A stretch of 64,000 bases of DNA from Vicia villosa (lineage: Eukaryota > Streptophyta > Magnoliopsida > Fabales > Fabaceae). This document shows positions 38,684 through 64,000 of this stretch, one piece after another; position 1 is the first letter of the stretch; every line of letters begins with the position of its first letter. The notes beneath the pieces are model-generated. The model worked only from the letters and a program-made list of their open reading frames with translations, was not told the DNA's origin and did no database searches. The translations under genes and the position numbers were made by a program. The stretch is taken from contig NW_026705187.1 in the NCBI RefSeq assembly GCF_029867415.1, positions 124,001-188,000 on the forward strand, given 5' to 3'.

Positions 38684-39100
38684 CAGGAATAAGATCTCGT
38701 GGCGATCTATGACTCAACATCGAAAGAAGATCTCGTGGCGATCAACTCGTCAACAGAAGAAAAGGGAATAAGATCTCGTGGCGATCTCATGACTCAACAT
38801 CGAAAGAAAATCTCGTGCGATTTTCCACACTTTGGAAAGGAATAAGATCTCGTGGCGATCTTATGACTCAACATCGAAAGAAAATCTCGTGCGATTTTCC
38901 ACACTTTGGAAAGGAATAAGATCTCGTGGCGATCTTATGACTCAACATCGAAAGAAAATCTCGTGCGATTTTCCACACTTTGGAAAGGAATAAGATCTCG
39001 TGGCGATCTTATGACTCAACATCGAAAGAAAATCTCGTGCGATTTTCCACACTTTGGAAAGGAATAAGATCTCGTGGCGATCTTATGACTCAACATCGAC
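38684..39100. repeat. 74 bp tandem array in Ogre 1
   Basis: A 74 bp unit starting GGAATAAGATCTCGTGGCGA repeats with exact period at 38839, 38913, 38987 and 39061; less regular units precede it (38684, 38765). Each unit contains GATCTCGTGGCGATC and AAATCTCGTGCGATTTT, both near-palindromes. Tandem arrays just inside the 3' LTR are a known feature of Ogre elements and can seed satellites. Confidence 0.92.
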
Positions 39101-41639: not shown

Positions 41640-42615
41640 GACTTGACTCCGTCTGGACTTATTGATCTTGAATACTTTTTGCAGTTCTTTCCAAACACTT
41701 CAGATTACTCCAAAAGAGAACTCCAACGAAGTCACCTATGAGTCGTAAACTTTTGCCTTGCTTTAGGGATTCGAGCAATGCGAGTGATGCAATGCTCAAG
41801 ATAAGAGTACGTCTTGCTTATCCCTCGTGCGGGAGCCCCAAGCATAGTTGCTAGAGTAGTAATCGCCATCCTAAATGGAAAGAATCTTGCACGACCATCA
41901 ACTCAAGAGAGCTACTTGTGGTGAAGAAGACCTAATACTAGAATCTTAACCAATTGCGATTCCAACAAACAAGGAAACGAATGGGCACAAGGCAATAGAA
42001 TCACATCAATTTGTTTCTCATATTCTTCTCGTCTCTGTTAACTAGCAAGGCACTGAGAAGGAGATCCTGAGAAAAGGCAACTGATATAAGAAGTAGAACC
42101 TTGAGAATGAGAAGCATTGTGAAGAACACTCTTGATTATCACACGGAAGAAGATTCTGACGAAGTCACCCAAGAATTTGTAATGCTTTAGGGATTCGAGC
42201 AATGCGAATGATGCGATGCTCAAGATAAGAGTGTGTCTTGCTTATCCCTCGTGCGGGAGCCCCAAGCATATTCATTGAAGAAGTATTTGCCATCAAACAT
42301 GGAGGAACCTTGTGTGGTCACCAAACTTAGAGAAGCTACTTGTTGCAAGGAGAGTTCAAACACCAACTGAAATACCAACCTCCACGAATACAACTGAGCA
42401 CAAGAACCTTGAAAATGAGAGATGTTTCTACAGAACAATCTTGATTACCCTTTTCGGAAAAGATTCTGACAAAGTTGCACAAGGACTTGTGGTGTTTTTA
42501 TTATTATTATACCAACGAGTTCAAGGAAGCAGCTTTCTACAAAACAGGAAATACTTGAAATGAGAACACAGAAAGGAAATGATGATTGCCATAGTTGAGG
42601 AGACTTGACTCCTTC
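41640..42615 (-). repeat. Tandem duplication of about 420 bp in Ogre 1
   Basis: TTTAGGGATTCGAGCAATGCG to CCCCAAGCATA occurs at about 41763-41846 and 42184-42270, within longer diverged copies that also share GAGGAGACTTGACTCC (41636, 42598) and GAGAAGCTACTTGT-type phrases. Position next to gag suggests a duplicated 3' flank of gag. Confidence 0.7.
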
Positions 42616-42657
42616 TGGGCTTATTTCTTTTTGTGACACTTCATGGAATACGGACAT

Positions 42658-43749
42658 TCACTTGGGCACGGGCATTCCGTTCACCCACATGTTTCCTCCT
42701 TGAAGGGTTATATGTCTCTCGTCGATCAACTGTTGCACCTTGGCTTTGAAAGCGTTGCAGTCCTCGGTTGAGTGCCCTGCTGATCCAGCGTGGTACCCAC
42801 ATTGCACATTAGGGTCATGCCCAGGTGGAAACGGGCGTGGTGGAGGTTTCAGAGATTTGGGGACCACCAATGAGCTTTGCACTAGATATGGCAGAAGTTT
42901 AGTGTATGTCATAGGAATCTGGTCCAGAGGAGCATTTCTTCGTCCCAAATTACTTCTAGGTGGGTATTCTTGTTGATGATTCTGTTCAGGTGTCTTCTCC
43001 CTTTGATTTGGTTGTGAAACAATCGGAGACTGATGAAGTGGGAAACCTGGAACCCAAGATGGTGCATTTGAAGTAGATCTGACATAGAAGCATGAATCAA
43101 CCTTTCTTTCCACCACATGTGGAACCCTGTTTCCTTGAACAATCATACCCTCGGGGGTGAACAAAATCACTTTTGAATCAATGAGGTCTTGAACTTGATG
43201 TTTCATCGCCTTACAATTCTCAATGTCATGGCCAGGTGCCCCAGAATGGAACTCGCATCGAGCATTGGCATCAAATTTGGGAGGACGCTTTTCAGGCGTA
43301 GCCAAATCTCGTAGCTTAATCAACTGAAGTTCCAGCAAGCGAGGAAGTAACTGAGCATAAGGCAACAGGATAGGATTGAGAACTCTCTGAGGTATCTTAG
43401 GCTTTTTCCCACGCATTTGGCCCCCTTGATTCATTCTAGGGACATGAACAGATTGACATGGAGATAATGGCACTTGAAATTGAGGGAGAGCTCCCTGAGG
43501 CATTCCATGAGTGGAAAGGAATCCTATTGGGAAGAAGGAATCAACAACTTCTGTTGCAGCAGCAGGAACAACATCACCTTCCTTCCTTAATACCGTCTTC
43601 AGAACTTCCATGACCAAGCTCAATTGAGTCTTCAACTGACTATTCTCCTCTTTTAGTGCATCCTGATTACGGACCAAGTCTCGCATCTCCAACATAAGAT
43701 GACCCATTTGTTCCTTCATCTCATCCATTTCCTCAGGGAGTTGTTCCAT
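42658..43749 (-). CDS. Ogre Gag-like protein, 363 residues, possibly truncated
   Basis: Gag packages the element RNA. The ATG at 43749 opens MEQLPEEMDEMKEQMGHLML, a coiled-coil (residues about 1-60), then a Pro-rich middle. Two similar zinc-knuckle-like modules of the form C-x2-H-x5-H-x4-C follow: CEFHSGAPGHDIENC with KHQVQDLIDSKVI (about 180), and CGYHAGSAGHSTEDC with KAKVQQLIDERHI (about 320), each preceded by a LLPxLxxxxL helix and a PP(K/R) linker. This is the Gag style of Ogre/Tat Ty3-gypsy elements. The frame is open, but the upstream capsid region and all of pol are missing, so it may be a deletion remnant. The stop is reached right after GNMWVNGMPVPK. Confidence 0.75.
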   Translation of the reverse strand: MEQLPEEMDEMKEQMGHLMLEMRDLVRNQDALKEENSQLKTQLSLVMEVLKTVLRKEGDVVPAAATEVVDSFFPIGFLSTHGMPQGALPQFQVPLSPCQSVHVPRMNQGGQMRGKKPKIPQRVLNPILLPYAQLLPRLLELQLIKLRDLATPEKRPPKFDANARCEFHSGAPGHDIENCKAMKHQVQDLIDSKVILFTPEGMIVQGNRVPHVVERKVDSCFYVRSTSNAPSWVPGFPLHQSPIVSQPNQREKTPEQNHQQEYPPRSNLGRRNAPLDQIPMTYTKLLPYLVQSSLVVPKSLKPPPRPFPPGHDPNVQCGYHAGSAGHSTEDCNAFKAKVQQLIDERHITLQGGNMWVNGMPVPK

Positions 43750-44775
43750 AGTTGATCTTGGAGTTGTGGCGGTGAGAAGTCAAATCTGTTGTTGATCTTG
43801 GAATCTGAATAGAAATGGTCCCATAAGTCTTTGAAAGAACCATGAAATGCATGATAGTATGAATGCATGTTTCATTTATGAGAGATCCTAAAGTCTTTTC
43901 TCACACTTTCATCTTTCTTTTTCTTTTTTTTTTCAAGGCTTTATTTTGTATAGAATATCTTTTCTTTTCTTTTTTGCTTTTCTATTTCCTTTTTCTTTTA
44001 CATATCTTTTCTTTTCTTTTCTTTTCTCTTTTTTTTGGAAATAGACTTTAGGATCTTTCATAAATGGAGTGGACAAAGCAATGATGTTATGCAATGCAAA
44101 AGCATGGGATCCTCGGTCCATATAATCTTAGTAACCACTGTACAATCCTCTGAATAACTGATATAGGTCAGATGTCATGAGATCAAAAGTCCGACATAAA
44201 TATTACAGAACCATAAGAACACTAGTCACCAACAGAACTGGATAGTCACCAACGGTACCTGTCATGTATATCCCTCCCCACTCACAGGTGAATCTAAGTC
44301 AGGGTAAGGTCAATATGGCAACCAGCGTTATCAGTCCTCCTGAGGCACCACTATTGTTGCATCTACATGCCAACAATGGTACCCCATTTGGACCTCGACT
44401 GGGCGTGGGTCTCATGATCGCACTAGACAAGACCTGACATCTCATCGGCGTCATGACTATCCACTCTATCCTAGGTGTCCTATGTGTCAACTCTGGCCTG
44501 GATATTGGGCCTTTTACCTCATAGAAATAACCCACCCAACCTGCAAACAGTGAAAATATATGGTCCCGAAGGGGATCCCAATCCAGTCCAGATGCATGCG
44601 GAAAAAAAACATGATATGCAAGCAGGAAAGTAAACAGGATATGCGAAACATAAACTAAATACATAAAATAAATAAATGCACGTATAGACAAAACATAGCA
44701 CACCCAGTAAATAAACAAACAAACAGATAGGCTAGGATCGACTCACTAAGGATGGACCCGCAATAGGTCTAGCAA
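43750..44775 (-). other. Ogre 1 leader region
   Basis: Untranslated leader between primer site and gag on the minus strand, with a long pyrimidine-rich tract on the plus strand at 43905-44035 (TTTTCTTTTC repeats). No ORF of note. Confidence 0.55.
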
Positions 44776-44795
44776 CATCCCCAGCAGAGTCGCCA
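44776..44795 (-). other. Primer binding site of Ogre 1
   Basis: The minus strand reads TGGCGACTCTGCTGGGGATG, two bases after the 5' LTR end. This is the arginine-tRNA-type site usual in Ogre elements. Ogre 3 has a variant at 63468. Confidence 0.88.
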
Positions 44796-44797
44796 GC

Positions 44798-47700
44798 TGT
44801 CGCACGCTCGCGAAAAATGAACAGAGTCGTCACCAATATATTTATCCCATAAGGGAAAGGAATACCAGGAAACCTAACAAAGGAAGGAACAGGGTCTTGC
44901 GACCAGAGAATCAAGGTACGGGAGTCGGTTACGCGAGGGGAAGGTACTAGCACCCCTCACGCCCATCGTACTCGATGGTATCCACCTATGTTTGTTTCTA
45001 TCTAAAGGGTGTATATCTACGTCTATGTCTATATGCGAAATGAATGCAAAATGTAGGGAAAATAAAGAATTGTACTCGCACGGGCCCTACCCCGCTGCCT
45101 ACGTATCCTTTTCAGGAATCAGAGTTACCGTAGCTCGGCTAAAGATTTTCTGTTTGTTTTTTGTGTTTTTTAGTTAGGCGGAGTTAAGGCTCGCGCTCTT
45201 GCATAAGGGATCGCCTAGGATGCAATAGAGCGGAGATAACATGCCCTTAGAAAGAAGAAAAAGAGAGATTGGTTTGTGTCTTTTAGGGTAATTCCATGAT
45301 GAAAAAACCCACTACAAGGCTTCGCATCACTTCCTTACTTTGTTTTAAATCTGATCATTTATTAGTGTTTTATGTGTTTTTGGTTGATATTTTTTATGGG
45401 GATTTTAATTTGTGACTTAGATCATACCAAAAAGAATTTTGTTTTTTTTTTGAGTATTTAGAGAATGCACATCGAGGTCTACACCACAATCGATTCTCTA
45501 AATAACGGATAAGAAATACATCGAAATCTACATTCCAATCATTTTTTTTCCGTTTAGTAGAAAAGAACGTACATCGGGGCCTACACCCCAATCATTTCTT
45601 TCCTACTACGTGGGGAAGAACGTACATCGGGGCCTACACCCCAATCATTTCTTTCCCACCATATATCAGAAGAGTCACGGTATGATCTTTGTCAGTTTTT
45701 TATTGAGTGTTTTAGAGTTAAAAAAGGAAAAGAAAATGAAATAGGGAACTAGTCTAACATCCTGATCTATGTTATTCTAATCCTTACCATTACCTAAAGG
45801 AAATACTAGGGTTGAAGAATGTATCACTATATCAAACACATGAAATTATATACAAAGAAACACTGAACAAAGTGAATATTTACATACGAAAAGAAAATTC
45901 AATTGAAAATAGAAGGACAGCATCTAAAAAATCAAATTTAGGTTCTAAAACCCTTTAAACATCTCTAATAGCACCTGTAAAAAGAAATCAAGGCCATTGC
46001 ATAAATGCAAGCCAAATTATGGACAAAATTCACTTGGTTACCCATTTAGAAACATGCTTCAATCGGGCATAGAAACATTAATGAAATTCTAATCAAAACA
46101 GAGAATTGGACTTTTATTTTTTATACACAACATCATACATGAGCCTACTGATATCACACAAAAAATGGGAATTTAATTCTACTCTTAAGACATTTAACAA
46201 AATTATTTCGTAAAACATAGAAAACATAAAAGGAGAATGAACACATGTGGAGAAAAGATTTATTAAAAATAGTAAAACAATTCTAAAAATCTACAAAAAA
46301 TGCCACAATTATCTACACATATAGAAGTACCCAAAATGTATTTTTGTTTATTTTTTATTGCATGGGAAAATGACTTATAAAGCCAAAGTTATGAAGAAAA
46401 ACAGATTTCAAACCAAAATACAATTCTGCCTAAACTAGGGGTGTAAAAGCAATGTTAGCCTGAACAGGAATTAGTTGTAAGCGCGTTTGGGCCCAACGAA
46501 TGGGGGTGTGGAAAACAACGTTGGCGCTAGGCCCAGCAGTTGTTTTTTATTGTTCAATCTTTTCATGTCCAAAAATGGTGGTGCGTGGGCCTGTATGGGG
46601 TGTAAACGGAATATGGTGGTGCAGTAGAAGTGAGGGCGCAAGGCCCATAATCAGAGGCCCAGGGATCAGTTTTTTGTTGTAGATTTTCTTAGTGCCAAAA
46701 AAGGCGTGGGCCTCAGGTGGGGTGTAATGAGCATTTCGTGGCCCAACAGTATTGTTTTCATTTTTGTTCATGTTTCTTCATGCAAAAAGATGGTGATGGG
46801 CCAATAGGGGGTGGATGTAAGCAATTCGGGGCCCAATGTGTTTTATGATCCACTTGATTTATTCAGAAATAATAATTAAAAACAATTAATAAAAAAGTAA
46901 ATAGAATTGGGAACTTAGGGTTACCAATGTGACGTTCCCAATTCTCTTCTCCTTCCTCTTGCTCGCCGCCGCGAACAAAGCGTGTTCAACCTCTCTCGAC
47001 TCAGCCGAACGGCGTGACGGATAACCCTCCCTCTCCGATCAAATCACCGGCCGCCGTGGATAGAGAACACGCAACCATCGTCATCATCTCGTCTTTCGAA
47101 GTCTCTCCGATTCGAATCGTTCATTTGGAGCGCAGCGTGAAGATTGTCGAAGACAACCAGAGGAGAGTTCTTCAACTTCTTCTTGATTCTTTCTTGGCTT
47201 CGTCGCTTGTGAGTCGTCACGGTATTGAAATTGCGGAGCTGTCGAGGGCGAATAATCACGAAGCCGGTATAGGAATCGATCGAAAACGACTCTTCTGGAG
47301 ATCGAATTCGCGAGATGGCGTGAGAGCGAGCAAAATACGAAGAAGAGATTTGAACCACTGAAGACTTGAATCCGATTCGAGCTCGTTACAGGTATCGATC
47401 TCTGTTTGGACTCCCTTCCAATTTCTGTTATGTTCTTCTATTCTTCTCTCTTCGTCTTCTGTGTTCTTCTGAGCGGTGTGAGCGGAGGGATGTTGAGAGT
47501 TGTTGTTCGTTTGGTGTGAGGATGAAGGATGAAGTTGGAGGTTGGTGGTGAAGAAGGTAAGGAAGATGATGTGATTGAAGCGCGAGAAGATTGAAAAGGT
47601 GAAGGAGGTGGATGAAGGTGATGGTGAAGATGATTGAAGTGATGAAGATGATGAAGATGATGATGAGTGGAGTGTGAGAATGGCGTGTGAATTGAGAGCG

Positions 47701-49928
47701 GAAGAGGATGAATAGTGCATATGAGCCTGTAACCTTGAGCTTTAGGGTGATGGTCCTGTTATATAGAGATTTAGAGTGGTGAGAAATCAGTTAGAGATTG
47801 AGAAGTTTTGTGAGCCATTGGATTGAAATCGGTTAGAGAATTAAGGGTGGGGATCTGTCAGTTATGAATTAGTTAGAATTCTGTTGGCTTGTTGGAAGGT
47901 GGTTAGAAGCAGTTAGTAATTTGTTAGGAGGAGGTTATAGGAATGAATTCTGTTATGTAAGTTGGAAGGTAGTTATGAATGAGATGGTTAGTTTCAGTTG
48001 GATTCAGTTAAGGTTGGTTACAAGCTGTTTTTTCTGTTACTGGTTATGAGCTGGCAATTAGAGTTGGTTATATTTAGGTTTGAAAAGAAAATAGTTAGTT
48101 ATAGGTTTTGTTTAGTTTGGATTTCTGTCATGAAGCTGAATTAGTGTGAACTGTTTTTGAATTCTGGTTTTGCTGCAGGTTGTGTTGATTTGAAGTTGCT
48201 GGCTGATCCATCTAGGATGCTACTGACTTTGAACAAGCTGAGTGACGCTGAATTGGAAATATTCACATTATCGCAATGAGCTGAACCGTCATAGACGTAA
48301 CAGGAGAATAGTTTCAGTTTGGATTCATTGACATGTCTATGCAAGTCTGTCCCGGGAATAAATTCTGTCATGGCATGGATGTTGATTTCTTTTGCCTTGA
48401 TGTTATGCTGCAAGTCTGTATAAGTGGCGAACATGTTCGAAGTTGAAACCATTAATTGATTCCTTGCATTGTAGCTTCAGTGAGAACCAAAGGTTAGCTA
48501 TGAATTCTGAACTTGCACAATTTCCCGAGCTTGTTGGCATTTCTGTTCTAGGGCTTCTCTTTCGATTTTCTTGTATATTGGATTGTATGCATGATGCGAA
48601 GTGAACATGTATGTAACTGTTTTGGTTTCGAATGCGGTTAGGGATTTATTGTAACTGGTTTATGCATGCTCTGTATGACATTGCTCTTTTTTTTTGTTCA
48701 GATGGCAGGCTGAGATTAAGTCGACACGATGGTAATTATCTTTGTTACCACTCTTTCCACCGATTTCTCTTTTCTGTTATGATAGGAAGCTGCTGAATTG
48801 TGTATGTATTATGACTGGTTATGCTGTTTTTCAACATGCAGGCAGCAGGTTGGCTCAATGAACGGGAACAGAAGGTGGGCTTATGGTCATAAAGCTTGAA
48901 GATCGAAATAGCAAAATCGGAAGTGTGTCTAGAATAGGATTTGGATTTTTTCTTTGTAGTTTTTGATGTGAATGTCTCAGTGTAATAACATGGAATTGAT
49001 TTTGTGTAATTGTGGATGAACTTTGGATGTCGTAATGATAATGGGAATTGAAAGAATGTATAGATCGAATGAATTTGGACCTTAGTAAAGGGACTTGAAA
49101 TGGATGTATAGACACTCGACTTTTGTATTGACTTATATTTCAACCAAATACAGATGAAGTTTTACTTCTATTCTTTCCAACTTTGAATTTCTCTTCATGC
49201 TTCAATATCTACTATGAGTATAGAGCCTTTCAAATGAAATTACCCATATCCCATCTTGAATGAGGAGATCCACATGACTTAGTTAGCAAATGTCAACCTT
49301 CCTAGGTCGACCTGTAGACCAAGTGTTAATTTATGCCGAATGGGATTATCTTTAGATCTCTTTCCTTTTTCTGAATTTGTCATGTCTTGGATGGAATGCT
49401 TCTCAATATAATAGCCACTTGAATAGTAATACTCAATATGAAGTAAAGTGGATTTCCAAGGATTCGGTCACCAGAAAGTCAACCCTTTCTAGTTGACTTT
49501 GTTGACCAAAATTCAAACCTTTGTAGGAATAAACTTTATCTTCTCCTTTCACAATATGCATATAAAAAATGGCTCTTATTCAACTTTGCATAGAAAATTC
49601 AACCGACTTGCCACCTTTAAATATACCATAACGCTTCTCTCGAAGTTCTTCATTAAGAAACTCAAGTAAACATTAGTTGTACTAAGATAACTTGTATCTC
49701 AAATAACCACAACAAACCCTAGTCCAGTGAAGGTCGCGAGTTTTTAGTCCATCATCACCCGGTACAGAGAAATGAAACTCGACTCTTTCCCAGATCATTG
49801 ATCCAATGCCAAGTTTATTGATTAATGAATGTATGATGTGTTAGATGACCTAATGGAAGGTATGCAGGTAACATGAGAAGCTTAAGCCAGTTAAAAGTTA
49901 AAGGGTAGGACAAATTTGGGGTATGATA
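44798..49928 (-). repeat. 5' LTR of Ogre 1 (right)
   Basis: Same length as the left LTR (5,131 bp) and nearly identical. Its minus-strand start has mutated from TGTCAT to TATCAT (plus strand GTATGATA at 49921-49928 against GTATGACA at 38352-38359). Confidence 0.95.
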
Positions 49929-50001
49929 GTAAGTCTCACGTGACAAAGTTGTGACGTGTTTCTCACATATTCTTATATCACTAGTACAAAAATATTAATT
50001 T

Positions 50002-50490
50002 ACACCCGTTTTTTTATTAAATTTACACCCGTTATTTTTAATAAAAATCGGGTGTATATCCACAGGGTGAGAAATGTCTAACGAATTTACACCCGTTATT
50101 TTTAATAAAAATCGGGTGTAATTGGACGTAATTACGTTTTTAATTACACCCTGTTTTAATAAAAATCGGGTGTAATTGGACGTAGTTACGTTTTTAATTA
50201 CACCCTGTTTTAATAAAAATCGGGTATAATTGGAATTAAATATGTTTTTAACTACACCCTATTTTAATAAAAAAGGGTGTAATTGGGCGTAATTACATTT
50301 TTAATTACACCCTTTTTTAATAAAAATCCGGTGTAATTGGGCGTAATTACGTTTTATTTACACCCTATTTTAATAAAAATCGGGTGTAATTGGGCGTAAT
50401 TACGTTTTTAATTACACCCTATTTTAATAAAAATTGGGTGTAGATACGTTCTTAATTACACCCTATTTTAATAAAAATCGGGTGTAAATA
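50002..50490. repeat. Subterminal hairpin array of element B
   Basis: About ten units of roughly 50-65 bp. Each pairs ACACCC(G/T) with (C)GGGTGT across TATTTTTAATAAAAAT-type AT stretches, forming stable hairpins. The middle units add a second perfect palindrome, CGTAATTACG (about 50128, 50342, 50394). Subterminal repeats bind the TNPA-type transposase protein in En/Spm elements. Confidence 0.85.
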
Positions 50491-50764
50491 CGCCATTTAT
50501 GAATGAACAATTATATTATATTTAAATCTATTTACACCCTATTTCATATACACCATTTAGTTATCTTTTATTTTCAGTCATAATATTTCAAATACTATAA
50601 AATCATACACATAAAAATCATATTTTAACTAAGTCATAATATTTTTAATATTAACCAAAAAATATACAAAATCATGTAGAGTCATAATATTTCAAGTACT
50701 ATAAAATCATACACATAAATATCATATTTTAACTAAGTCATAACACTTTCTTCATATATAAGTT

Positions 50765-50905
50765 TTTTTCTTCTTCTTTGGCTTTTGTTTTGGCAACATT
50801 TCTATGTCTTTATCCTCTTCAACCATTTGCATTTGATCTTGTAGATTTTGCTCCTCAACCTTTTTATTTTCAACCAGTTGCAAAAATATTTTAGCCCAAA
50901 GTTGC
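50765..50905 (-). pseudogene. Coiled-coil/basic tail exon of unknown origin
   Basis: The minus strand gives LLENKKVEEQ-type coding: QLVENKKVEEQNLQDQMQMV, then EEDKDIEMLPKQKPKKKKKT, ending in a stop. It is Glu/Lys/Gln-rich, probably coiled-coil, with a nuclear-signal-like Lys run. Such tails occur at the C-terminus of plant En/Spm-type transposase-associated proteins, so it may be a remnant of the element's own gene rather than a captured one. This is inference. Confidence 0.4.
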
Positions 50906-51113
50906 CCAAAGATATATGAAATGTTGAAACAAATATTAATTTATAAATGATACATAGAAAAAAATAATTAAAAATAGAATAAGATACTTTCACAAAGTCC
51001 TTTAATTTTGTTTATAATTGTAAAAGTTCATCGACAACAACATTGTTAGCTTATGGAAGCACACAACAACAGACAATCACAAGCATACAGAAAGGGCACA
51101 GAAAATTATGAAC

Positions 51114-51529
51114 CTTTGCTCTCTGCCTTAACCTTCAAAGCCAAATTCACAGCTGCATCAAAATACTCTGCTACCTTAACGAAATCCTCCTCAACAAATC
51201 CCCTTGAAGTAAGAGCCTTTTTCTTATATGAAAAGTTAAAGTAGTTATCGGGTTACCTTTTTCTTCAGATTCACCAAAACTAGATGATTTCCAGTCCCAC
51301 CGGAAACAAGTTCATAGCCTTTCTCACTCAAAGCCTGCAATATATTCAGTGTTAATTAATACACAACGGATTAATCTCTTTGGTCCAATAAGGAGACTGC
51401 TCTTGTGTTGATTGACTCCAATATTTATGAGAAGAGACTGCTGAGTTATCCTTTCTAATGTACCTGTGCAAATTTTGAGCTATTGCTGAGAACCTGCTCT
51501 TGATATGCTCTATACTCTGGAGTTGTAGC
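51114..51529 (-). pseudogene. Captured serine hydroxymethyltransferase fragment (mitochondrial type), three exons
   Basis: Three minus-strand exons in gene order. 51464-51529: [20 protein letters not shown] (then AQ). 51257-51334: [20 protein letters not shown] (then VNLKKK). 51114-51216: [20 protein letters not shown] (then [14 protein letters not shown]). The first two have proper AG/GT borders. They match the C-terminal half of photorespiratory SHMT, which makes serine from glycine and methylene-tetrahydrofolate. The residues between NLK and ALTSRG (about 45 in SHMT) are missing; only 40 bp separate exons two and three. The PLP-lysine region and the whole N-terminal half are absent. This is a captured, non-functional piece. 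Confidence 0.85.
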
Positions 51530-51861
51530 CTGAATCCACAACAAAAAAAATCAAAAGATATTATCACTTAATGAATATGCATTACATATGGTACACACAC
51601 TCAGTCAGTATCACTATAAAACTTGGTCACTCTTCAAATAAACAGAAAAACGTTAGAAACTTTTCTCTAGTTTTATGCTTTCTATCAAGAAATGCATCAT
51701 GATAACAAAGTCTATCGATTTAAGCTACATGGTACTCAATAGTGCTTTGCGCGAAGAGGTGTATTGGGAAAAATCCTAATCACACGTAGATTGAATATAG
51801 AACCCAAGAACAATTAACAACGGCAACAAGAGAAAGTTGAAGGTACAGAAAAGAAATTTAC

Positions 51862-51949
51862 CTTTTGTGACATTGGGATGGTTAGTTTATACCAAACAAA
51901 AACTTCTTGTGTAAGTTCATGCCTGAGAGCAGCAATTTCAACTTCTGTC
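51862..51949 (-). pseudogene. Exon-like fragment of unknown gene
   Basis: 88 bp between a minus-strand AG acceptor and GTAAATTT donor. One frame is open: TEVEIAALRHELTQEVFVWY then KLTIPMSQK. I do not recognise it; it lies between the SHMT and KORRIGAN pieces and may be a further captured exon. Its acceptor side forms one arm of a 17 bp inverted repeat (51934-51950 / 51998-52014). Confidence 0.4.
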
Positions 51950-52068
51950 CTGCACCCCGAGTCCATCATTTTAACTGATTCTAATTACCTTCAATCCGGA
52001 CAGAAGTTGAAATTCAAGTTCAGATTCAAACTCAAATTATAGTTTCGAGAAAATCTATACTTGACACT

Positions 52069-52177
52069 TCCAACCATTGCTCCTGTGATGTTGTTAGGAT
52101 TTCTGTTAGGGGTGTCGCGCCACTTCCAACCACCAGTGCATGAGTAATTTTTGTGATTATTTGGAATTGATGCACCT
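52069..52177 (-). pseudogene. Captured KORRIGAN-type GH9 endo-1,4-beta-glucanase exon
   Basis: After a TTTTTTCTTCACAG acceptor the minus strand reads [20 protein letters not shown] then [16 protein letters not shown]. This is the C-terminal catalytic-domain segment of the membrane-anchored KORRIGAN glucanases, whose family pattern is RGASIP-N-V-Y-C-GGWKWRD-PNPN-I-GAMV-GPD. Those enzymes act in cellulose synthesis at the plasma membrane and Golgi. After GAMVG the sequence departs from the family, so the fragment ends there. The rest of the gene is absent. Confidence 0.82.
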
Positions 52178-52262
52178 CTGTGAAGAAAAAACCTGCTATA
52201 ATCAGAAAAGGGTAATGTGAATATAAAAAATTCCAACTTCCTTTCAAATAGAAAGCATTAAC

Positions 52263-52356
52263 TTGAGAAGTCATCAAGCCAGAATTAGAAACCTCAGTAT
52301 CCTTATGTAGAGGTTGTCCAAATGCATCTGATAAAACAACATCTAAAGAAAAATTC
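52263..52356 (-). pseudogene. Exon-like fragment of unknown gene
   Basis: 94 bp between a minus-strand CAG acceptor and GTTAATG donor, open in one frame: NFSLDVVLSDAFGQPLHKDT then EVSNSGLMTSQ. I cannot place it. It does not match the KORRIGAN segment next to it, so it may come from a fourth gene. Confidence 0.45.
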
Positions 52357-52982
52357 CTGCGACATGATGTCTGTGCCAAATTATATAAAGGCAAGGATGA
52401 AAATAAAGTTTAAACTAGATGGGAAAGTTAACAGCATTAAAAACTTGGCACAACTTGTAAAGATCTCAAAAGTATAACCATATGAAAGAAAATGGTGATT
52501 GTCAATAGTTGCATTTCTAGAAATGCAATCAGTATGTGAACACTAAGAATATTAATAATTACTAACATTTCTAGAACTACAATCAGTATTGTACCTAAAT
52601 AAAGTAGCTCCACTTTAATTGGGTTTGGCCTGTCATATTGCAAAGATTCATAGTGAGGTATACTATATTAATTTTGTATAATGAATTGGTGTTATTTTTC
52701 TTACATTCTATTACCAAAATTGTTTGAATTATCTAAATTGTTGTGATTTGCTAGAATGTTATATTATAGGTGATCAAAACCTTGGGCCACTAACTGTGAT
52801 TGAACTGACATCCAATAATCCAAACAAGCACTAAATCCCCACTCAAAAAAAGTGCCACTGTAATATCTAGTTTATAACTAAAATTGTATATACGCTTAGA
52901 TACAACAATCTAATTAATAACTAACACTGCTAAGAAAGACATTATAACTATGTCTTATATTATAAATGATAATCATACTTAC

Positions 52983-53326
52983 CTACATGTCAATTGAAGT
53001 CCCCGTAGTTAGAAAAAAATTCCGAGCAGCAAGTCTCTAAATGGTCTTACGTCTGCTTCAATCTGGGTCCTGAAACTTGTCTCTGCTAGGATTGCCCCAG
53101 CTAAAAATGCTCTAAGCTGCATTGCGACATTACATTCAATTGTCACACATGTATTCAATTTTAGGATTTACCATAATTCCAAAGTCAACCCAAGAATGAA
53201 ACACTGCATTGAAAAATATTGAATCGTATCACTGAAGCCCAGTTTCTGAGTGAGTAGTAAAGTCCCAGCAATAGTCAGCAAGCAAAGAGCAACAAAAGCC
53301 TCTGAACTTCTTGTATCTGCAACAAC
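52983..53326 (-). pseudogene. Captured KEA3-type K+/H+ antiporter fragment, two exons
   Basis: Minus-strand exon 53225-53326: VVADTRSSEAFVALCLLTIA then GTLLLTQKLGFSDT. Exon 52983-53116: LRAFLAGAILAETSFRTQIE then ADVRPFRDLLLGIF, and after a one-base shift LTTGTSIDM up to a GTAAG donor. This is the conserved transmembrane core of plant KEA antiporters (CPA2 family); RSSEAF-ALCLLT-AG and GFSDTLGAFLAG are KEA3-like. KEA3 works in the thylakoid membrane. The upstream exon's donor is mutated (ATTC instead of GT), and the frameshift and missing ends make it non-functional. Confidence 0.83.
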
Positions 53327-53820
53327 CTGAATTTCATCAACACTTCATTTAATATAATATTCATTTATTGGAAACATATTATCAATTAATTTAGTTGAGT
53401 TAAAAGTATACCTATCTAAAGCAGCTATTTATATCATAACTTAAAAATAGTTAAAGAAATAAATTAGTTACTCCTAACTAGCACATACTCCTATTGTTGG
53501 ACAATAGTTTCTTCTTATTTTTTTATAGCCTAACTAACAAATTTGGAATCGAAATTATAAACCTGTAAGAGAATAGTGATGGTCTCAATTAAGCTCTCAA
53601 GCGCGCCGTAGTCGATCCTCCGAACTCCAAATTTCTGGTTTGACTTGGTTCACCGCTGCAGCAACTCTTGTTTGCTTAAATATTTTCCAATTCAACGCAT
53701 TAATATTCAATCTTAGAGCCACCCAAATGCAGACAACCATTTCACATGTTTTTATGACATTGCATAATGTCGCCCTCGGTTTTGTGAGACGCAAACTGAC
53801 TCTTCTTTTGCTTTTTGAGT
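53327..53820 (-). other. Element B remainder with a possible further exon
   Basis: On the minus strand RIDYGALESLIETITILLQ is followed by a GTTT donor-like site (about 53563-53620). It could be another captured exon; I do not recognise it. The rest is AT-rich. The sequence is cut at 53820 by Ogre 2. Confidence 0.35.
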
Positions 53821-56800
53821 TGTGAAAATCAGAGAGTCGCCACCGACTTTTATTTTATCCAATTAAGGAAAGGTTTATAAAAGAAACAGAAAAAGACCTT
53901 TAAGAGATTTTGGGTAAGGAGATAGGTTATACAAAGGGAAGGTGTTAGCACCCTTTGTATCCATGGTTATCCATGGGCTCTTAGTTGCTTGGCTCACTTC
54001 TTTGAATCGTTTGTCTTGCCTTTAAATGCTTGTATGTGGTTTTAAAATACCTTTGCAAATTAACTTTGTAATGATCCTTGTGCGGATGTATACACAGTGT
54101 TTTGTTTTTCGAAAGATGTTTTGAAAAAAGATCTTTAACTTCGTAATGATCCTTGTTTGGATATATACCAAGTATTGTCTTTTTTGAAAGTTTTGTTTTG
54201 AAATACGGTGAATATGTGAGACATTTGTTGTTTTGATTTGAGCAAGCAATTAGGAGGTCTATCTTATATTTATAAGGTCTTTTCCTAATTCTTTTAGAAA
54301 ATTCTCCTTTTACCAGATGTAAACAAAAGTTTGAATTCGTATTTGAAACAGTAGAATTTGATTTTTTGAAAAGAGTAACAAAGGGATTACCCTAAGAGGT
54401 GCAAGTGTGATTGTGTTTTGATTCAGATATTTTGTCTTTGAATTTAGTGATCTAACGCTTCAGTTTTTATCTTTGACATACACGCAGTTTTATATATACA
54501 AAAATTAAAGTGCGGGAATGTAAAATGGGGAAAGTAAATCTACGCTATTACATCGATTGTGCGAGAAATGTAAACTACGCTATTTACATGAATTTGACAA
54601 CCTATACACTTATCTAGGAATTTTAAATTGCAATAAGATAAAAGAAAAATTTTTGGATTTTTTGTATGGTTGATTTTAATTAGAATTAATGCATGATTAA
54701 TTTAATTAAAATGAGAAAAAGGTAGAAATAAAATTTAAACCTAAACATTAAGTTTAAAATATGTTCAAAATACTTGTCAATTAATTTTAAAATAAAACTA
54801 ATTTTTTTGGAATTTTTGAAATTGATTTGAAAACTATTAATTTAAATAATATATATTTATACAAATAATTATACAAATAATTAAAACTTAAAGAGAAAAT
54901 TATACTAAATATGTGCAAAATTAGTCTATAATATATAAACTAAATTTAATATAAAGAACAATTTTTTTTTATTTTTGATTGGTTGAAATAATTAAAAAGC
55001 AAATATATAAATATATACTAATTAATTATGCAAAATATTTTAATTATTAAAAAAAATAAAATATTTTTGTGTCAAAAATTAAAGCAATATTTTACCGACC
55101 TAAAAATATTTTTTATGCATTTTTCTGATTTTTAAATAATTTTAGAAGTTAAATTAAATAAAATAGAAAATAATTTAACTTGTGATCCTGTGTGATAATC
55201 AGTGGAGTCCATGGTATGGATGTGCATTCGTGAGCGTAGGATGAATTTTTTAGATGCATCTAGTGGCTTAGATTAAAGGGAACATGATATAATGATGAGA
55301 CTGCTTGCACTGAATTCAAAGAGAATTCAAATTTCTGATGGGGTCCACACGCGCCAAAACTGGCCAATGAAGAAGCAAGGATTGGCCACGCATGCAGTCA
55401 AACGTTCCACACCACTATTCATCTTCTTCTTCCTTTTTCCTGCGGATTTTGCTGCGGATTTAGCAGCCAAATTACATGCGCATTTTTCTTTATTTTTTTC
55501 ATGCTTTTTGAAACCTACAAAAACGTGGAAATGAATTACCAAGAACAACCCAGGTCTACTAAATAGCATGCTGGAAGTTCATTGGTGGTGTTAGTTTTGA
55601 TTAAAACCCCCTCCATCTATGAAAACGAAAGCTTTGCATCCTTGGAGTTCAAAAATGGCACATGATGCTTTAGGGTGTATGGCTCATATATGATACGTTG
55701 GATCATCTCTAAATCATGGTATGAACCCATAGAAACCATTAGATTACATTGAAAAGCATTAGAACACGAGATATTAAAATTGGAAATTTAATAGAATATG
55801 GAAGAACGGCTATGCATGTTCTATGTACAAACAAGCAAGACTATTGGTTGGAACCTGTTCTATAATAGCCCAGGAGAAGATTGAAGTGTTTATTTGAGGT
55901 TGATATGAGCTTATACAAGGAAAACGAAAATGTACAAAGTATGTGATATTTTGAGATTTTATGAACTTCTTTGCTATATTCTTGCTAATTTTTCGTGTCT
56001 CTTCCATTGATGAAGTGTGCTACTTCATTTATAGGCAAAGATGTGCTTAAAATTGAAGCTAAGAAGCATTGATGAGCTTTGTTGAATTTTTGACTTGTTT
56101 AATATATTAAGCTTTGAATTCAAGCTACCATAGCTTGATTTTTCCACACCTCTTGCCCTAGGCCTGCCTTGTAGCTTTCTTGCTGCAGAATTGGATCAAT
56201 TTTGGAGGCTTTAGCTTAAGAATCAAGCATTGCATCATTATTCTTTACCATTTCTTTTTCAATTTAATCTTAAATGTAATAAAATTAAACCAAAAAAGAA
56301 ATAAAAATGTTATGGGCCTTAGGTTTGTTGTGGGAGGCCCTTAACATTGTTAGAATCATGTTTGGATCATGAAAACTTGGCCCCTTTTGGAAAAAAAACA
56401 TTTTTGATCAATGTTGGTTTCATGCATTTTCCCAAAATTTAGCCAACTTCAACAAGGCATAAATCTCTCAATTTTTATCATATGAAGGAGTTCTTGTACT
56501 TTTTAGAAACCTCAAGATGTCCTCTACAAGCTACTTTGGAAGCATTTTTGCATTTGGAGAAGTTATCTTGATGTTATGGCCTTTGACAAAAAACCACTTT
56601 TTGTTGACTTTGAAAATGACCTATAATGTCTTAGCTCATATTTTCCAAATGGTGAATCCAATGACCATAGGACCAATTGCATTTTAAAGATAATTGAATT
56701 TCCTTAAAAATGAGCCTTGGTTGGAATTTTTTTGATGAATGATGAGAGAGTTATGGCCAGTCAAAGTTCAGTTGACTTTTTAGGAGAAAACCCTAATTTT

Positions 56801-58484
56801 GAAACTTAGGGTTTTGCTGATTTCTGAGATTTTCTTGATGAATTTTGATCAACCACTAGTCAAATGATGAATCCTTTGACAAAATATGGATGTTGACAAA
56901 AAATTTCATTTTTGACTGTCTGTTGACTTTTTGATCGTACGAGTCGTCTGTTGACTGTTTGAGCTGTCGATTGCGCGTCCGAGGGAATCGAAGTATGAAA
57001 ATTTGTCTGGTGGTACTTTGAGACATATGGAGGTACATTAAATCCATTTTAAGTCTAAAAAAACTTGTTCTCCTGATAAAAACAAAAACCCTAGTTAGGG
57101 ACTGTTTGTGTAGGAGACAGTCGAGCGTACCTGATTTTTGTGCAGTGCTGAGTCTTTGCTGATCTTGTGATTGTCAGAAGACTTATAGGACAAAAATCTT
57201 GGAATTTTGAAATGTGAAAGATGGATTTGATTGATGGTACAAAACACGGAGAAACGTGCTGTCACCGGGTTTGACTGTTAACTGGCTGTTCGGGTATTAA
57301 CGTAACAGTTAAAGTGAAAATTCAACAGTTAAAGTTAATTTTTCTTTTTGTTTTTGTTGTGTTAATGGTGAGAAATTATTTACATGATTTGTTAGAGAAA
57401 CACAAACATAATAAATAATTAAAGTACACTGTACGAGAACAAAATTACCGTCAATAATAAGACTGAAAGGATTTAATGCACAAAAAAAATAAATATTTTA
57501 ACTAGCAATAAACACATATAATATTATCTTACTAGTTAAATGACGATATAATAGATAGTGTAATACTTAATACTGACAGTACAAATATTACCTAAGCAAA
57601 CGTAGTAAACAGCACGGTAAATATAAAGAACGGTACATTCTAAAAACAGAAGATAGGACAAACTTTACATATGACGATTAATAATCCATGCTATGACCAA
57701 CAGAAAATAGATAATCGGAAGTGTAACCATCGCAGTTCCGCATTTTTCAGGACTATGCAGACAGAAGAAGGACATGATCACCGTAGCAATGGTGATGACT
57801 ATAAGAAAAAGTGTCTCCATCCACTTTGCCATTTTTTGCCGGGGAAGAAGAGAAAATAGATATGAGGTAGAAATTTGAGAGATTGAATGAAATTTGATGT
57901 GAGATTTTATGGAAAAAATGAGAGGTATTTATAGAATGAAAAGAAGGATAGAGACGTTGGGGAATGAAGTCATTCCGTACAAAAAAGGAAAGTTTGAGTG
58001 GTAGTAGAATTTGAAAGAAATGGTATGGTAGGGTTTGAAAAGAGAAATGTGTAGAATAAAGTTAGGATTTGATTTGAAAGAAAGAGATTTGAAAAGATAG
58101 AAAGATATTTTGAAAATAATAGAATATAGTACAAAAATTAGTGGGAAACAATAATAATTTAATTGTTACCAATACAATCTGAATCCCCGGACTCTGCGCC
58201 TGCAAAAGATTTAATTCTGTACCAATTGCGTTAGTACTATTTATCTGTAAATAAATCTCAAATAGATAGCGTGTGTGAAGTGATAAACAGTAATTGGCGT
58301 TTGTGTAAGAATAAATTCAACAGCGAGCCAAAGTACCGAATAAGAAAAATTCTAAAAACCAAGTATTCAAAAATCAGGATATTTATGGAATAAAAATCCA
58401 AGATTATATGAAACTCCCAATTTTTAGACAGAAGTCTGTTGCCTTCTTTTTGAAAAAGATGTGGGCAAATTTTGGGGTATAACA
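53821..58484 (-). repeat. 3' LTR of Ogre 2
   Basis: The plus-strand left end TGTGAAAATCAGAGAGTCGCC resembles the GAACAGAGTCGCC end of Ogre 1. TATA-like boxes on the minus strand are CCTATAAATGAAG (about 56023-56036, the likelier by analogy with Ogre 1) and CTATAAATACC (57924-57934). No gene inside; many TTGAC motifs at 56590-57290. Confidence 0.85.
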
Positions 58485-58734
58485 ATTGCCCCTATTCAAT
58501 CTTCTTAAACCTGATTGGAATCTGAAGGTAGAAGATGATTGAATATTTAGATGCCCTGAAATTTGCACTTACCTCCACCGACAGTGATATTGGAAATTGC
58601 ATTTGAATGTCGTCTGAGAAATGTTGTCTGCAGATCGAACCATTGCCTGAGATGGGCCTTCAGATGCCATCTGGAAAATGTGTTGATGGTTTGTTCATCA
58701 GAATGAATCCATTGATTATATCTTGATGAAGGAT

Positions 58735-59160
58735 TTGAAAACCTCTGCGTTGACCGTTACGGAACCGTCCGAGGTTACCGCTTTAAATCTTTGAGGTTGA
58801 TTATTACAGAACTGTCCAAAGTTTCTGCTTCGAATTTTTGAATGCTGATTGCTACAGATCCGTCCGAGGTATCTGCTTTTAGATTTTGAAGATTGATCAT
58901 CGTGGAACCGTCTGAAATATCGGCTTAAATCTGAATGGTAGATCATGAAGGAACCGTCCGAGGTATCAACTTAGATCTGAAGGTAGATCATGAAGGAACC
59001 GTCCGAGGTATCAACTTAGATTTGAAGGTAGATCATGAAGGAACCGTCCAAGGTATCAACTTAGATCTGAAGGTAGATCATGAAGGAACCGTCCAAGGTA
59101 TCAACTTAGCTCTGAAGGTAGATCATGAAGGAACCGTCCAAGGTATCAACTTAGATCCGC
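58735..59160. repeat. 45 bp tandem array in Ogre 2
   Basis: Five regular 45 bp units starting GATCATGAAGGAACCGTCC at 58941, 58986, 59031, 59076 and 59121, preceded by older diverged 50-60 bp units sharing GAACCGTCCGAGGT (58757-58930). Since 45 is divisible by three, the array reads as an open frame of VDHEGTVRGINLDLK repeats on the plus strand, antisense to the element; this is not taken as a gene. Confidence 0.92.
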
Positions 59161-60275
59161 GTTGCTTGTTTAGAATTAGAGCTCTTCAGAGTGAATCTTT
59201 GGTTTGATTATATCTGAAAAGAATGCTCGTGATTGAAGATAACTTGCTGAGGATATTCGTCCACCTGAAAAATCAAGTTAGTGATATGCAATGTCATGAT
59301 GCATGTAATGTATATGAGATTTTTGAACTAAAGGAGAAATATGCATGTTATGTATGCGTTTGTCATGAAACATTATATGATATGTATGAATATGCGTATG
59401 ATGTATGATGCATGATTTATGCAGTTTAGAGCGTATCAAACTTCTAGTTGGGAAAATAAATCCCTGCTTGCTATTTTGGAAACGATGGCATTATGAATGT
59501 TGACGATCTTCGCTACCCTGCTTGAGTACACTCAGCTGGGGAACTTTTTTACGGACCAGGGTGCTCTGTTGAGGGATCTTTGACTACCGCTTTGGGATGA
59601 GAGGTAATTTGAACATTCTGATTTTGATGCCCTTTGAATGGGAATAAGAAAGATGCATAATCCTCCGATGCACTATTTGACCAAGCCTTGTTGTGGAGAC
59701 CACACCTTTTGGGGATAGTGATCTTGAACAGCCCTGCTGGGGAATAAGGTTTCTCGAATCACCTTGTTGGAGGGAAAAAATCTCATAGAGGAATTTGCTG
59801 AGAAATACGTCTCTGTTGGGGAATTTTCCTCTGAAACTGGTTTCGGGATGATGTCCAGATGATTGGGACACTACCTGAATGCTATTCCCTTGTTAATCAT
59901 ATTCAAATGCATATGTTCATTCAAAATTATCATTGGGACGTTTATGCATTCAAAACAGAAAAAGTGAAAACATTGATTTTAGCGTGAATTGTGTTGATTT
60001 TGAAAGAGGGCCATAACAGGCGGATTAGTACAAGGAGACAACAATCCTAGTAGTAGGAAATTGTCATAAAACTTTGAAAAGTAAAATAGCTATGTGGAAA
60101 CAATCCAGTCAAGTTTCAATTCTGCTATTGCCAATCTGTCTTCGAGTATCTCATCCCTCACTTGTTGGAAGAAAATGATTGGACCGATTAGTGCCTTTGA
60201 TGTGTTGAACCTTGAATGTGAGTAAATAGCCAAACGGGACATAGTCGTATGCTTTATTCCCTAACTTTTGCCTAG
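59161..60275 (-). other. Ogre 2 internal 3' region
   Basis: No Pol motif. Short diverged phrases of the type TGCTGGGGAATTT recur at 59530-59830, as in the matching part of Ogre 1. Confidence 0.55.
60271..60275. repeat. Candidate left TSD of Ogre 3 (CCTAG)
   Basis: The five bases before TGTCATACCCC. The partner would lie beyond the right edge. Confidence 0.4.
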
Positions 60276-60538
60276 TGTCATACCCCAATTTTTGACCCTA
60301 AGATCATACATCAATTGCATTCAATCATCAATCAAAAGCACCATTGTGAGGCTTTGTCTTTGATACTGTGATTATCTCTGAGGGGAATCATCAAGCACTT
60401 TTAGATTTTTATTTGTTTAGTGCTAACCAAAAATCAAAAAAATATGTGTTTTGTCTCTTTTGTTTATATTTTACAGGTGAAAGATCGGGCAAAAGTCAAA
60501 ACAGTGCAAGAAAACAATTTTTGAAAATTTGGAGGTGG

Positions 60539-61359
60539 AAATCGATTTAACCCTGTGGGAAATCGATTTCCTGTGTGCAAAATTCAAAAAAAAATATAAG
60601 GAGGGAAGCTTGACATCATTTTGGCACCTTTTATTTGATCATTTTACCAATTTTCCACCTCATCAAAATTAACTCCTTCATTAAACCCACTTAAACATCA
60701 TTTTACCATTTAAATCCCACTTTAATTACCAATTAACCACAAATTAATTACCAAACACAAAAAGACCAATTTGCCACTACTCTTGCTCCAATTCTATAAA
60801 TAGAGACCTCTACTCTCTCATTTCTCAAGCTTTGAGAGCCAAAAAACCCCTTGCAATTTCTCTCCTCATCCCTACCAAATTCACCAAAGCTCTTTATTCT
60901 TTCATAAAGTTTGTGAGTCACACCTTGAACCTCACAAACTTTGAGCTAAACCACCATCCATTTCACTCTTTTTTCTTCAATTGTTGAGAGATCAAGATTT
61001 GTGTTGGTGATTATTGAAGTGGATCTAAGTTTTGTTCAAGAATTGGTAATTTTCATCATCCTTTTCCATCTACCATAATGTGATTCTTTGTTGTTTGTGT
61101 TCAATGCATCTTTGATGCTATATTGGTCCTATTTGATGGTGATTTGATGGAAAATTTGTGCTCCAATGAATATGTGATCATAAGGTGTTTGTATGTTTGC
61201 CTAAATCAAGTTTCAAAGTTCATAATGCTGTTATTTTGAAAACTGTGCGCAGGAAATCGATTTCCTACAGAGGGAAATCGATTTCCACTCTGTTTTTTTG
61301 CGCCAGATCTGAATTCTGCAGGCAGGAAATCCATTTCCTACAGAGGTAAATCGATTTCC
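60539..61359 (+). promoter_or_regulatory. GGAAATCGATTTCC palindrome cluster
   Basis: Perfect 14 bp copies at 60559-60572, 61252-61265 and 61273-61286; near copies at 60538-60551, 61325-61338 and 61346-61359. Two pairs are spaced exactly 21 bp (61252/61273 and 61325/61346) and share a CTACAGAG linker. One group lies upstream of the TATA box, the other downstream in the transcribed part. Confidence 0.7.
60794..60803 (+). promoter_or_regulatory. TATA box of Ogre 3 LTR
   Basis: CTATAAATAG about 520 bp into the LTR, followed by a CT-rich start-site-like region (CCTCTACTCTCTCATTTCTC). Confidence 0.6.
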
Positions 61360-63467
61360 AGTGAGGCAGAATGCTTGTTTTTGCTATTTTTGACTTGTTT
61401 TTGGTTCTAACTCTTCTTCTACTCCATTCTTTTGATATTTTCTTTGAATCACAAACTAGAGGCCTAATTTCTCTCTAATTTCAATGGACTTGGGGCGTCG
61501 ATAGGATGAGAATCCAAATCCGCAAAATTATGTGATTGAAATTATGGATGAAAGGAGCTTTTACTGTGGTTCCATCTTTTGTTTCTCTTTATTTTGATCG
61601 ATGAAAGTCTTAATACTTTGAGAATTCTTATGGATTCTTATGGATTCTTAGTAAAGACTAGATCACTCACCATTTTTCTTTTCGTGCGGTATTTCTTTCG
61701 GAGAATGATCTACATATCATTCCTCTCGCATGCATTAGCACATAAAGTTTTGACCGGCCTCGTTGTAGGGTGATTTCTACATAAATCACCTGGCGATCTG
61801 CTTAACATAGCGCAATATTTCGTGTCCCGAATCAAAAGATCAAATATGGAAGAGAATTGTATGCGGTTGATTTAAGACTTATGGAAATTTATCGTGTAGT
61901 CGCTATGATTCTATCAAGCTTCTGATAAGTTTCCATTGAATTTAAATCCGAGTACATCCTTCACTCACCATCGATCTTCATTACTAACTTTGATAACATA
62001 CTTGACAAGTTTCAAGATGGTTATCTTTAACATCTAACAATTGACTTTAATTTTCGTACTTCTATTATATTGCTCTTTATATTTCTCGCTTTATCGCTTT
62101 ATTCTATCATTTCATCATATTTACATTCCGCTATTTTTCCTTTGTCCATTTGGACGTTTATGTTCCGCTATTTTCTCTTTGTCCATTTGGACATATGTTT
62201 ATGTTTCCGCCATTTTCTTTTTGTCCACTTGGACCATACTTTACTTTTATGCTAAAACACTAATAAATAACAAAAATCTAAAAAACACTTAAGGCTCTTT
62301 TTTGGACTATTGGTTACTATCCCTAGCATTTCGGAGATTCGGACTTATGGACTTAGCGCCTCTGGACCCTTATTCTGTTAATTACTCTGCTGTTATTCTG
62401 TCTGTCTGGCATTGGATTGTTGTCTGTTTATGTGTGCAGGTATTTCCTTGAAAGCCCTTGATGGTTAATTCCAAGGCATTGATATAAGGATTTTACCCGA
62501 AAACAGCCGTTACTCTGCCCGATTTTCGCCAGAATTTTAATGTGCTTAATGCGAAATGGTGCTAAGATAATAAGTTCATCTGGATCCCCAAGTGATAATG
62601 TTGGTTTAGTATTGATATTTCAAAGGACGGGAAATCTACCTTGGCTCATAATGTCAAGTGTTGGCTTTTTATTTCGGTTAGACCGTTCTTTTCCTTAGCT
62701 TTTATTTTACGCATTAGGATAGCCTCTTCATCTCCTCCCACTTCTTAAATTTTCAAAATCTTCTCCCTTTTTCAAAATATTCTTATGTTTGCAAATCTTT
62801 TCAAAACCTTTTTCTTAAAAATATCTTTTGCCCTTAGTGGCCTTTTTCTCATTTTCTTCAAAAGTTTAGACACTGTTAATTGTCGAAACGAGTGGTTATA
62901 CCCCACGATTTTGAAATTGATTGATATAATGAGATCTTTTCCGCGTGAGAGAGCTAGTGGCATACTCGTCGATTTTATCCGATTTGGAGCCCTTCTTTCA
63001 TTTGCGATGCAAAGAACTCGTTTGTTCTCATGCTCAAGATCAATGGCTGAGTATTTCTCTCCAACGATGATAAAGTGTTTATTCGTTTTAAAAAATGTTT
63101 TCCCTAAAGCGGAACTACATTAGCTCTGACTTCTCCATTGCACCGAGGAGGTATGTAGGCACAAAGCTTAACGCTTTGCCGAGCTTATTTTAAAAATAAA
63201 ACAAACCCGTTTTTTAGCACACACGACACAGATTTTCAAAAAGGTTCCTGTAGAGTACCACAGATATGAGGGGTGCTTAAAACCTTCCCCTTGTATAATC
63301 AACACCCGAACCTGAGTTCTCTTTCTTGTTTTAAAAACAAAACTTTGGGTTTTACGTTCTTTTCCCTTTTCCTTTGAAAAAATAAAGCGCGGTGGCGATT
63401 TCAAACGGAATATTGATACGAGTCAATCTCATGGCTTCGATATCAGATTTTCCCCGCTACAGAAAAA

Positions 63468-63486
63468 TGGCGACTTCACTGGGGAT
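63468..63486 (+). other. Primer binding site of Ogre 3
   Basis: TGGCGACTTCACTGGGGAT, six bases after the LTR end. It is a variant of the Ogre 1 site (TGGCGACTCTGCTGGGGAT), differing at three positions. Confidence 0.82.
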
Positions 63487-64000
63487 TCTGTTTTAAGTGT
63501 GTTAAGCCTATTTTTGTTTATCTGTGTGTTTTTATCTGTATATATTGTTGTGTGCTTTGTTTGTTTATTTTCTTTTTTTTTCTTTTTGGTGCTCGATGGT
63601 TCCTCTGTGATGAGATAAAGTTCTAACTCGAACTTTGGTGAGTAACTTGAGATAGGAGGTGGTAAGACCAATAGTCGCATGTCAGGAGAAATCCTTACCA
63701 TGAGCGTCATATGGTGGAACCCCAATCAGTGGAGGCCTCATGGAAGGTAGTAGAGGTTGTTACGAACCATCGTGATAACGCTATTACTTTCAATAGTGAG
63801 TGTCCGTAGAAGCTGAATGGCCTAGAACCTTTTAACCAATCTAAGCCTTTTTAGGATGTAGTGCAGAAACAAGATCAAGTACCAATTTGAGCTTGTTGTC
63901 ATGCGATACTATGCTCAGACGAGGTCGTTTTAGGCATATTATTGGCGCCCATGAGCAATTGTGCGTGCCGGTAATATCCGATAGAAGATTGAAAACTCTG
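63487..64000 (+). other. Ogre 3 leader
   Basis: Untranslated leader after the primer site. No ORF of note within the window. Confidence 0.55.

Follow-up and report, generated by a model that had tools for sequence, protein, structure and literature searches.

The 64 000 nt stretch of Vicia villosa (vetch) contig NW_026705187.1 analysed here (the window) contains, with very little room for doubt, a decayed copy of a Pack-CACTA transposon, multi-copy and non-autonomous. Between its ends, pieces of host genomic DNA are patched together in the order TFB2, X, KEA3, Y, KOR, Z and SHMT from the far end to the hairpin-rich near end at nt 49979. An initial annotation of this DNA had proposed a Pack-CACTA element with fragments of at least three unrelated genes. 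Taken as a whole that interpretation is supported, with corrections, and the count is extended to six by donor-like loci and by two complete copies of the element elsewhere in the genome (L030 and L040). All six pieces with a matched locus (TFB2, KEA3, Y, KOR, Z and SHMT) read toward the near end; the minus-strand placement of KEA3, KOR and SHMT had been recognized from the outset. Several captured pieces retain introns, thus DNA rather than mRNA was copied.

The near end and its hairpin array are part of a high-copy family. A presumed 3 bp target site duplication (TSD), left copy TAT (nt 49976–49978, no strand; read from the sequence and without a right partner, the far end being lost), is followed by the terminal inverted repeat (nt 49979–49991, plus strand; exact-motif and genome 15-mer searches). 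CACTAGTAC has a single exact occurrence in the window, at nt 49979, and the 15-mer CACTAGTACAAAAAT has 581 exact matches in the genome (301 + 280) versus 13 (9 + 4) for the reversed control. The subterminal TTACACCC/GGGTGTAA hairpin array, of about 54 bp period, occupies nt 49998–50550 (no strand). The CACTA end with a strong array of this kind, as first described, is confirmed by Tandem Repeats Finder (54 bp × 7.4 copies) and by folding: nt 49979–50560 as single-stranded DNA reaches −120.5 kcal/mol (z −13), which none of 100 shuffles equals. Seven of the eight loci retrieved with the CACTA-end 15-mer resemble the window here in BLAST comparisons (about 80–92 % identity), the conserved near-end region being nt 49979–50765 (no strand); the eighth, L002, is without such subterminal repeats in the stretch inspected. 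The ends of the family are asymmetric, with the hairpin-rich near end extending over about 790 bp and a differing far end conserved over about 260 bp. Adjoining the near end is a lysine-rich open frame (nt 50752–50940, minus strand) also present in L016, L030 and L034, for which a Pfam search gave no match. A near-end frame ending in IYEESVMT was considered as a transposase exon and rejected; relatives carry aldolase sequence at that place.

Ends starting with CACTA, the hallmark of the superfamily, are found at nt 49979 and at both termini of the complete copies L030 and L040. L030 (C1) is 6,529 bp long, with TSD TTG/TTG, and aligns colinearly with the window copy, at about 97 %, through the site at which a retrotransposon has entered the latter (Kimura two-parameter distance, K2P, 0.020 over 3,206 sites). 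L040 (C1345) is 5,611 bp long, with TSD TGT/TGT and the same gene order; it has three internal gaps of about 150, 280 and 380 bp, one of them common to the window copy. The target sites of the window copy (TAT), L030 (TTG) and L040 (TGT) differ, therefore these are separate insertions. Likewise, both ends, matched duplications and the same gene order in L030 and L040 indicate that the composite moves as a unit. Matched 3 bp TSDs are present in five of the six elements with both ends (L030, L040, L017, L019 and L020). The bodies of five elements (L030, L014, L017, L019 and L020), all with both ends, contain 146 open frames (minimum 40 aa) on the strand reading toward the hairpin-rich end and 117 on the other; no transposase family was found among them by Pfam at E <= 0.01.

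The copy in the window has been broken. It stops at nt 53767 with CATAA (nt 53763–53767, no strand), the left target duplication of a nested long terminal repeat (LTR) retrotransposon. The span to nt 53820 first given for the element is therefore too long, nt 53768–53820 being LTR. The retrotransposon (plus strand) fills nt 53768–64000 of the window, with its 5′ LTR at nt 53768–58484 and its 3′ LTR reaching window-equivalent position 92751; it measures about 39 kb, has LTRs of 4.7 kb and is flanked on both sides by CATAA. L030 is continuous across this site, without the insertion. The LTRs have diverged by K2P 0.014, which at a substitution rate of 1.3e-8 dates the insertion to about 0.6 million years ago. 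Past the retrotransposon, outside the window and on the same strand as the other pieces, lie exons of TFIIH subunit TFB2, up to about 94048 (Pfam 3.6e-11; PDB ‘General transcription factor IIH subunit 4’, 4.3e-07). Similarity to the complete copy ends near 94048, past an internal gap of about 970 bp, and the final 290 bp or so, including the far end, are absent from the window copy; the window and the 100 kb to its right were searched for a far end, with none found. Split by the ~39 kb retrotransposon and deprived of its far end, the window copy should no longer move. Window-equivalent positions 95700–97667 (L012) were tried as the far end and rejected, as they read as a remnant of an apparent other CACTA family, in which TTTATAGTG forms the end and TTAGTGACGTGATTT the hairpins. 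A second LTR pair, 98 % alike, lies inside the nested retrotransposon (nt 60276–63461 and 75309–78464, the latter beyond the window).

Of the pieces inside the window, X (nt 53540–53740) is exon-like by eye on the minus strand and was assigned no strand; it has partial matches elsewhere (82–96 %). All others are on the minus strand. The antiporter piece (nt 52810–53349) comprises exons at nt 53225–53326 and 52982–53116 plus intron, with a frameshift, a lost splice donor and a stop; it matches a KEA-type antiporter in Pfam (5.3e-12) and KefC in PDB (4e-10). Piece Y (nt 52180–52619) consists of an exon (nt 52293–52370) with flanking intron; we take it to resemble a plant SH2-domain protein, for which Pfam gave no confirmation. 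The GH9 piece (nt 52069–52187) is exon-internal and weak on its own (Pfam 0.093; no match in a second Pfam run). Its identity comes from a genomic gene, L035, to which 110 of 111 bases in the window are identical and whose exon is GH9 at Pfam 9.6e-35. The subtypes KEA3 and KORRIGAN (KOR) are presumed, the searches having given families only. Piece Z (nt 51659–51978) includes a possible exon at nt 51862–51949, its 3′ edge falling between AAG and GTAAAT. Four SHMT exon pieces follow: nt 51465–51529 (Pfam 0.0036 alone, 1.9e-17 joined with the other SHMT exons), nt 51257–51334 ending NLKKK (Pfam 2e-07, also PDB), nt 51112–51216 ending KAESKG (PDB 1.4e-12) and nt 50991–51011 (TKLKDFV, an open-frame reading), the last three matched by L031. 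The top PDB matches of the SHMT exons are SHMTs, including 6smn ‘SHMT 2, mitochondrial’. The antiporter, GH9 and SHMT identities proposed earlier thus hold. The exon-like pieces then left unplaced are now partly accounted for, in that Y and Z each match a locus of their own and X has the partial matches alone. The statement that splice borders are kept stands for several native-looking sites, and fails for the KEA3 donor, which is lost, and for the 3′ border of KOR, which is non-native.

The six donor-like loci are L031 (SHMT), L032 (KEA3), L033 (Y), L035 (KOR), L036 (TFB2) and L037 (Z), with 1.1–2.5 kb of each read. They lie apart from one another, and a native gene cluster is rejected on that ground. 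Compared with the L030 copy, identity is 88.6 % over 543 bp for KEA3, 89 % over 444 bp for Y, 97.5 % over 119 bp for KOR and 88.4 % over 320 bp for Z. The corresponding K2P values are 0.062 for TFB2, 0.072 for Y, 0.080–0.093 for SHMT, 0.089 for KEA3, 0.113 for Z and 0.026 for KOR. Since donor divergence (0.062–0.113, KOR apart) exceeds the 0.020 between the window and L030, the pieces were most likely captured before the copies spread. KOR may be the latest piece captured, or its low K2P (119 bp, exon only) could instead reflect constraint on the donor exon.

Parts of the array are found at further loci; scoring covered 40 of 637 candidates, and the counts are therefore minimum values. L034 (C6:105325631–105332630) is common with the window from the near end into Y; past that point come exon pieces of the Ca-ATPase and PH-domain types, again on the same strand, and no far end lies within its 7 kb. 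SHMT and Z blocks are present in L039, the SHMT block in L014 and the KOR block in L038. Piece Z recurs at 93–94 % in at least eight further loci, L039 being the one inspected, and the KOR piece at 97–99 % in at least seven loci besides the donor, L038 being the one inspected. In L038 and L039 an aldolase piece lies next to the KOR or SHMT pieces, and a single open frame spans KOR and aldolase in L038. For two other pieces, tentatively named dynamin-like in L034 and TIM14-like in L014, Pfam gave no confirmation.

Several observations weigh against reading the window array as part of a transposable composite. The copy in the window lacks a far end, thus its membership rests on its copies. Many family members resemble the window in the terminal region only, and L014, with both ends present, has mismatched duplications (ATT/AAA). 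About one-third of the Vvill1.0 assembly is unplaced owing to heterozygosity, according to its description (PMC10659084). Copies located on unplaced scaffolds might in some cases be haplotigs, although the target sites of the window copy, L030 and L040 are different. The missing far end and the terminal-only matches would suit a separate small CACTA element lying beside an unrelated pseudogene cluster or Helitron cargo. However, in L030 and L040 a CACTA end bounds the array on each side and the duplications match, which refutes that arrangement unless both are misassembled, and leaves it next to no probability; an element ending before nt 50760, named at first as an alternative, is ruled out by the same two copies. 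A further reading, very improbable too, makes the array a chimeric gene that evolves under selection and is expressed from the element as a spliced transcript. In its favour are the common orientation of the matched pieces and the persistence of several splice sites of native appearance. Against it, KEA3 carries a 1 bp deletion and a GT-to-AT change at its first 5′ splice site in the window and L030 alike, SHMT is without one exon present in the donor-like gene, and TFB2 exon sequence has been lost in the window. The second KEA3 exon of the window also terminates at a TAG codon, at a position where L032 has Q. Since the frameshift and the lost donor are common to another copy, KEA3 is unlikely to yield a useful product. 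Judged from sequence, the captured pieces look like passengers rather than a gene in the making.

The junctions bear on how the Pack-CACTA composite grew. Y and KOR meet at TCAC, common to both pieces, and the splice-like AG at that point was created by chance when they fused, since the KOR exon of L035 runs straight across it. In L030 one SHMT exon is deleted between two copies of GTTCAA, a junction that a further deletion has removed from the window, and the KOR–Z gap holds a 17 bp inverted copy of Z sequence. Aberrant gap repair would be the likeliest route: after excision, broken ends would be filled from other loci, and template switches at short matches would leave 4–6 bp microhomologies and inverted filler, as these few junctions suggest. 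The composite then transposed as a unit, as is shown by its copies at different target sites with matched duplications; an autonomous relative presumably provided the transposase in trans. Its blocks recur in relatives in other combinations and may have been exchanged between elements. This route rests on three junctions, and a fusion of neighbouring insertions would also fit, which counts against it. Such growth, by fusion of neighbouring Pack-CACTA insertions and re-mobilization from the outer ends, is possible and the less probable of the two. It has been published for Pack-TYPE elements of Arabidopsis, rice and maize (PMC8903248, accessible part), and relatives do carry common blocks in differing combinations. 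However, these are short pieces with matches at many loci, and they meet at 4–6 bp matches in the junctions checked; exact CACTAGTA occurs once in L030, at the near end, in a search that did not take in degenerate inner ends. Fusion by itself does not predict one orientation.

Like the array of the window, the family seems to capture genes heavily and mostly in one direction. In the open frames of the five elements, nine Pfam families were found at E <= 1e-5 on the strand reading toward the hairpin-rich end (Usp, aldolase, NTF2, aldo/keto reductase, GATA, cytidine deaminase with an overlapping deaminase model, NUDIX, peroxidase and RRM) versus one, proteasome in L014, on the opposite strand. 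Weaker matches (0.0005–0.009) were on both strands, six families versus five, the former including SHMT and Tfb2. The six matched pieces of L030 are likewise all on the strand reading toward the hairpin-rich end. The 9 : 1 split gives 0.02 in a two-sided sign test, with a cut-off chosen after the match lists had been viewed and a non-random sample, the first members of a positional list plus L030, in which blocks are common among relatives and the duplications of L014 are unmatched. L040, a copy of L030, was left out, as were L034 (no far end in 7 kb) and L016, L018 and L021 (no far end in their 10 kb). Capture in this CACTA family may be directional, with pieces taken up or kept almost only with their sense toward the hairpin-rich end, a proposal to which we give somewhat less than an even chance. 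Repair copying could be coupled to the direction of transcription, or antisense inserts could be lost through silencing or through blocking transcription. If so, the family would be a one-way exon collector trading exon blocks among hundreds of elements. No report of one-way capture in CACTA elements was found in the literature searched, as far as the accessible parts of those sources extend. A bias of this size, if genome-wide, would make it possible to test why host exons lie in one direction in some plant transposons, and whether this arises at capture or through selection afterwards.

In a crop legume, donor-like genes, complete composites, partial relatives and a dying copy together form a donor-matched series, from whose junctions the steps of capture can be read. 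For annotators it is also a warning, as such captured pieces can be called as genes.

Elsewhere in the window, an LTR retrotransposon at nt 33229–49928 (TSD GTAAG) stops some 50 bp short of the CACTA end, on its left; its 5.1 kb LTRs are 99.8 % alike (K2P 0.002) and it is very young. A Copia-type element occupies nt 5112–5971, 9457–10242 and 17698–19189, with frames at nt 12009–15170 and 15858–17342 named by eye; its 5′ LTR seems split by a 3.5 kb insertion with a 164 bp duplication.

As far as the accessible parts of the cited sources describe them, several known systems resemble the vetch element. Tgm-Express1, a 5.7 kb soybean CACTA in the wp allele, has captured pieces of five unrelated genes, introns as well as exons, and these were spliced into the wp transcript as additional exons (PMC1947982). 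Both are CACTA elements of similar size with multi-gene pieces including introns. Tgm-Express1 involves other genes and one mutant allele with transcript data, whereas the vetch element, known from DNA alone, has six matched genes, several copies and donor-like loci. The Tgm-Express1 pieces are probably co-oriented too, although that paper does not use the term orientation. The Tpn1 family of Ipomoea nil (339 CACTA elements, mean 7,081 bp, mostly non-autonomous) has conserved ends, interiors replaced by captured host sequences and a known chimeric transcript (PMC5105172). It is like the vetch family in its ends and interiors and differs in lineage; orientation is not addressed in the part available. 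The 20.5 kb soybean CACTA Tgmt* has 24 repeats in 732 bp and 12 palindromes at one border (PMC2613891), and shares the asymmetric ends and long hairpin array of the vetch element; unlike it, Tgmt* is putatively autonomous, with transposase. Pack-TYPE CACTAs of Arabidopsis and maize likewise have non-autonomous ends around captured coding DNA; the growth described for them is neighbour-insertion fusion, whereas the vetch junctions also suggest template switching (PMC8903248). Stepwise capture has been reported for maize Helitrons as well (PMC3288121). Chenopodium CACTAs contain host gene fragments too, but as single fragments in the 5′ region beside transposase domains, in contrast to the multi-gene array in vetch (PMC8978399). 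Given Tgm-Express1, Tpn1, Tgmt*, the Pack-TYPE and Chenopodium CACTAs and a 2026 review, the vetch element is of a known kind.

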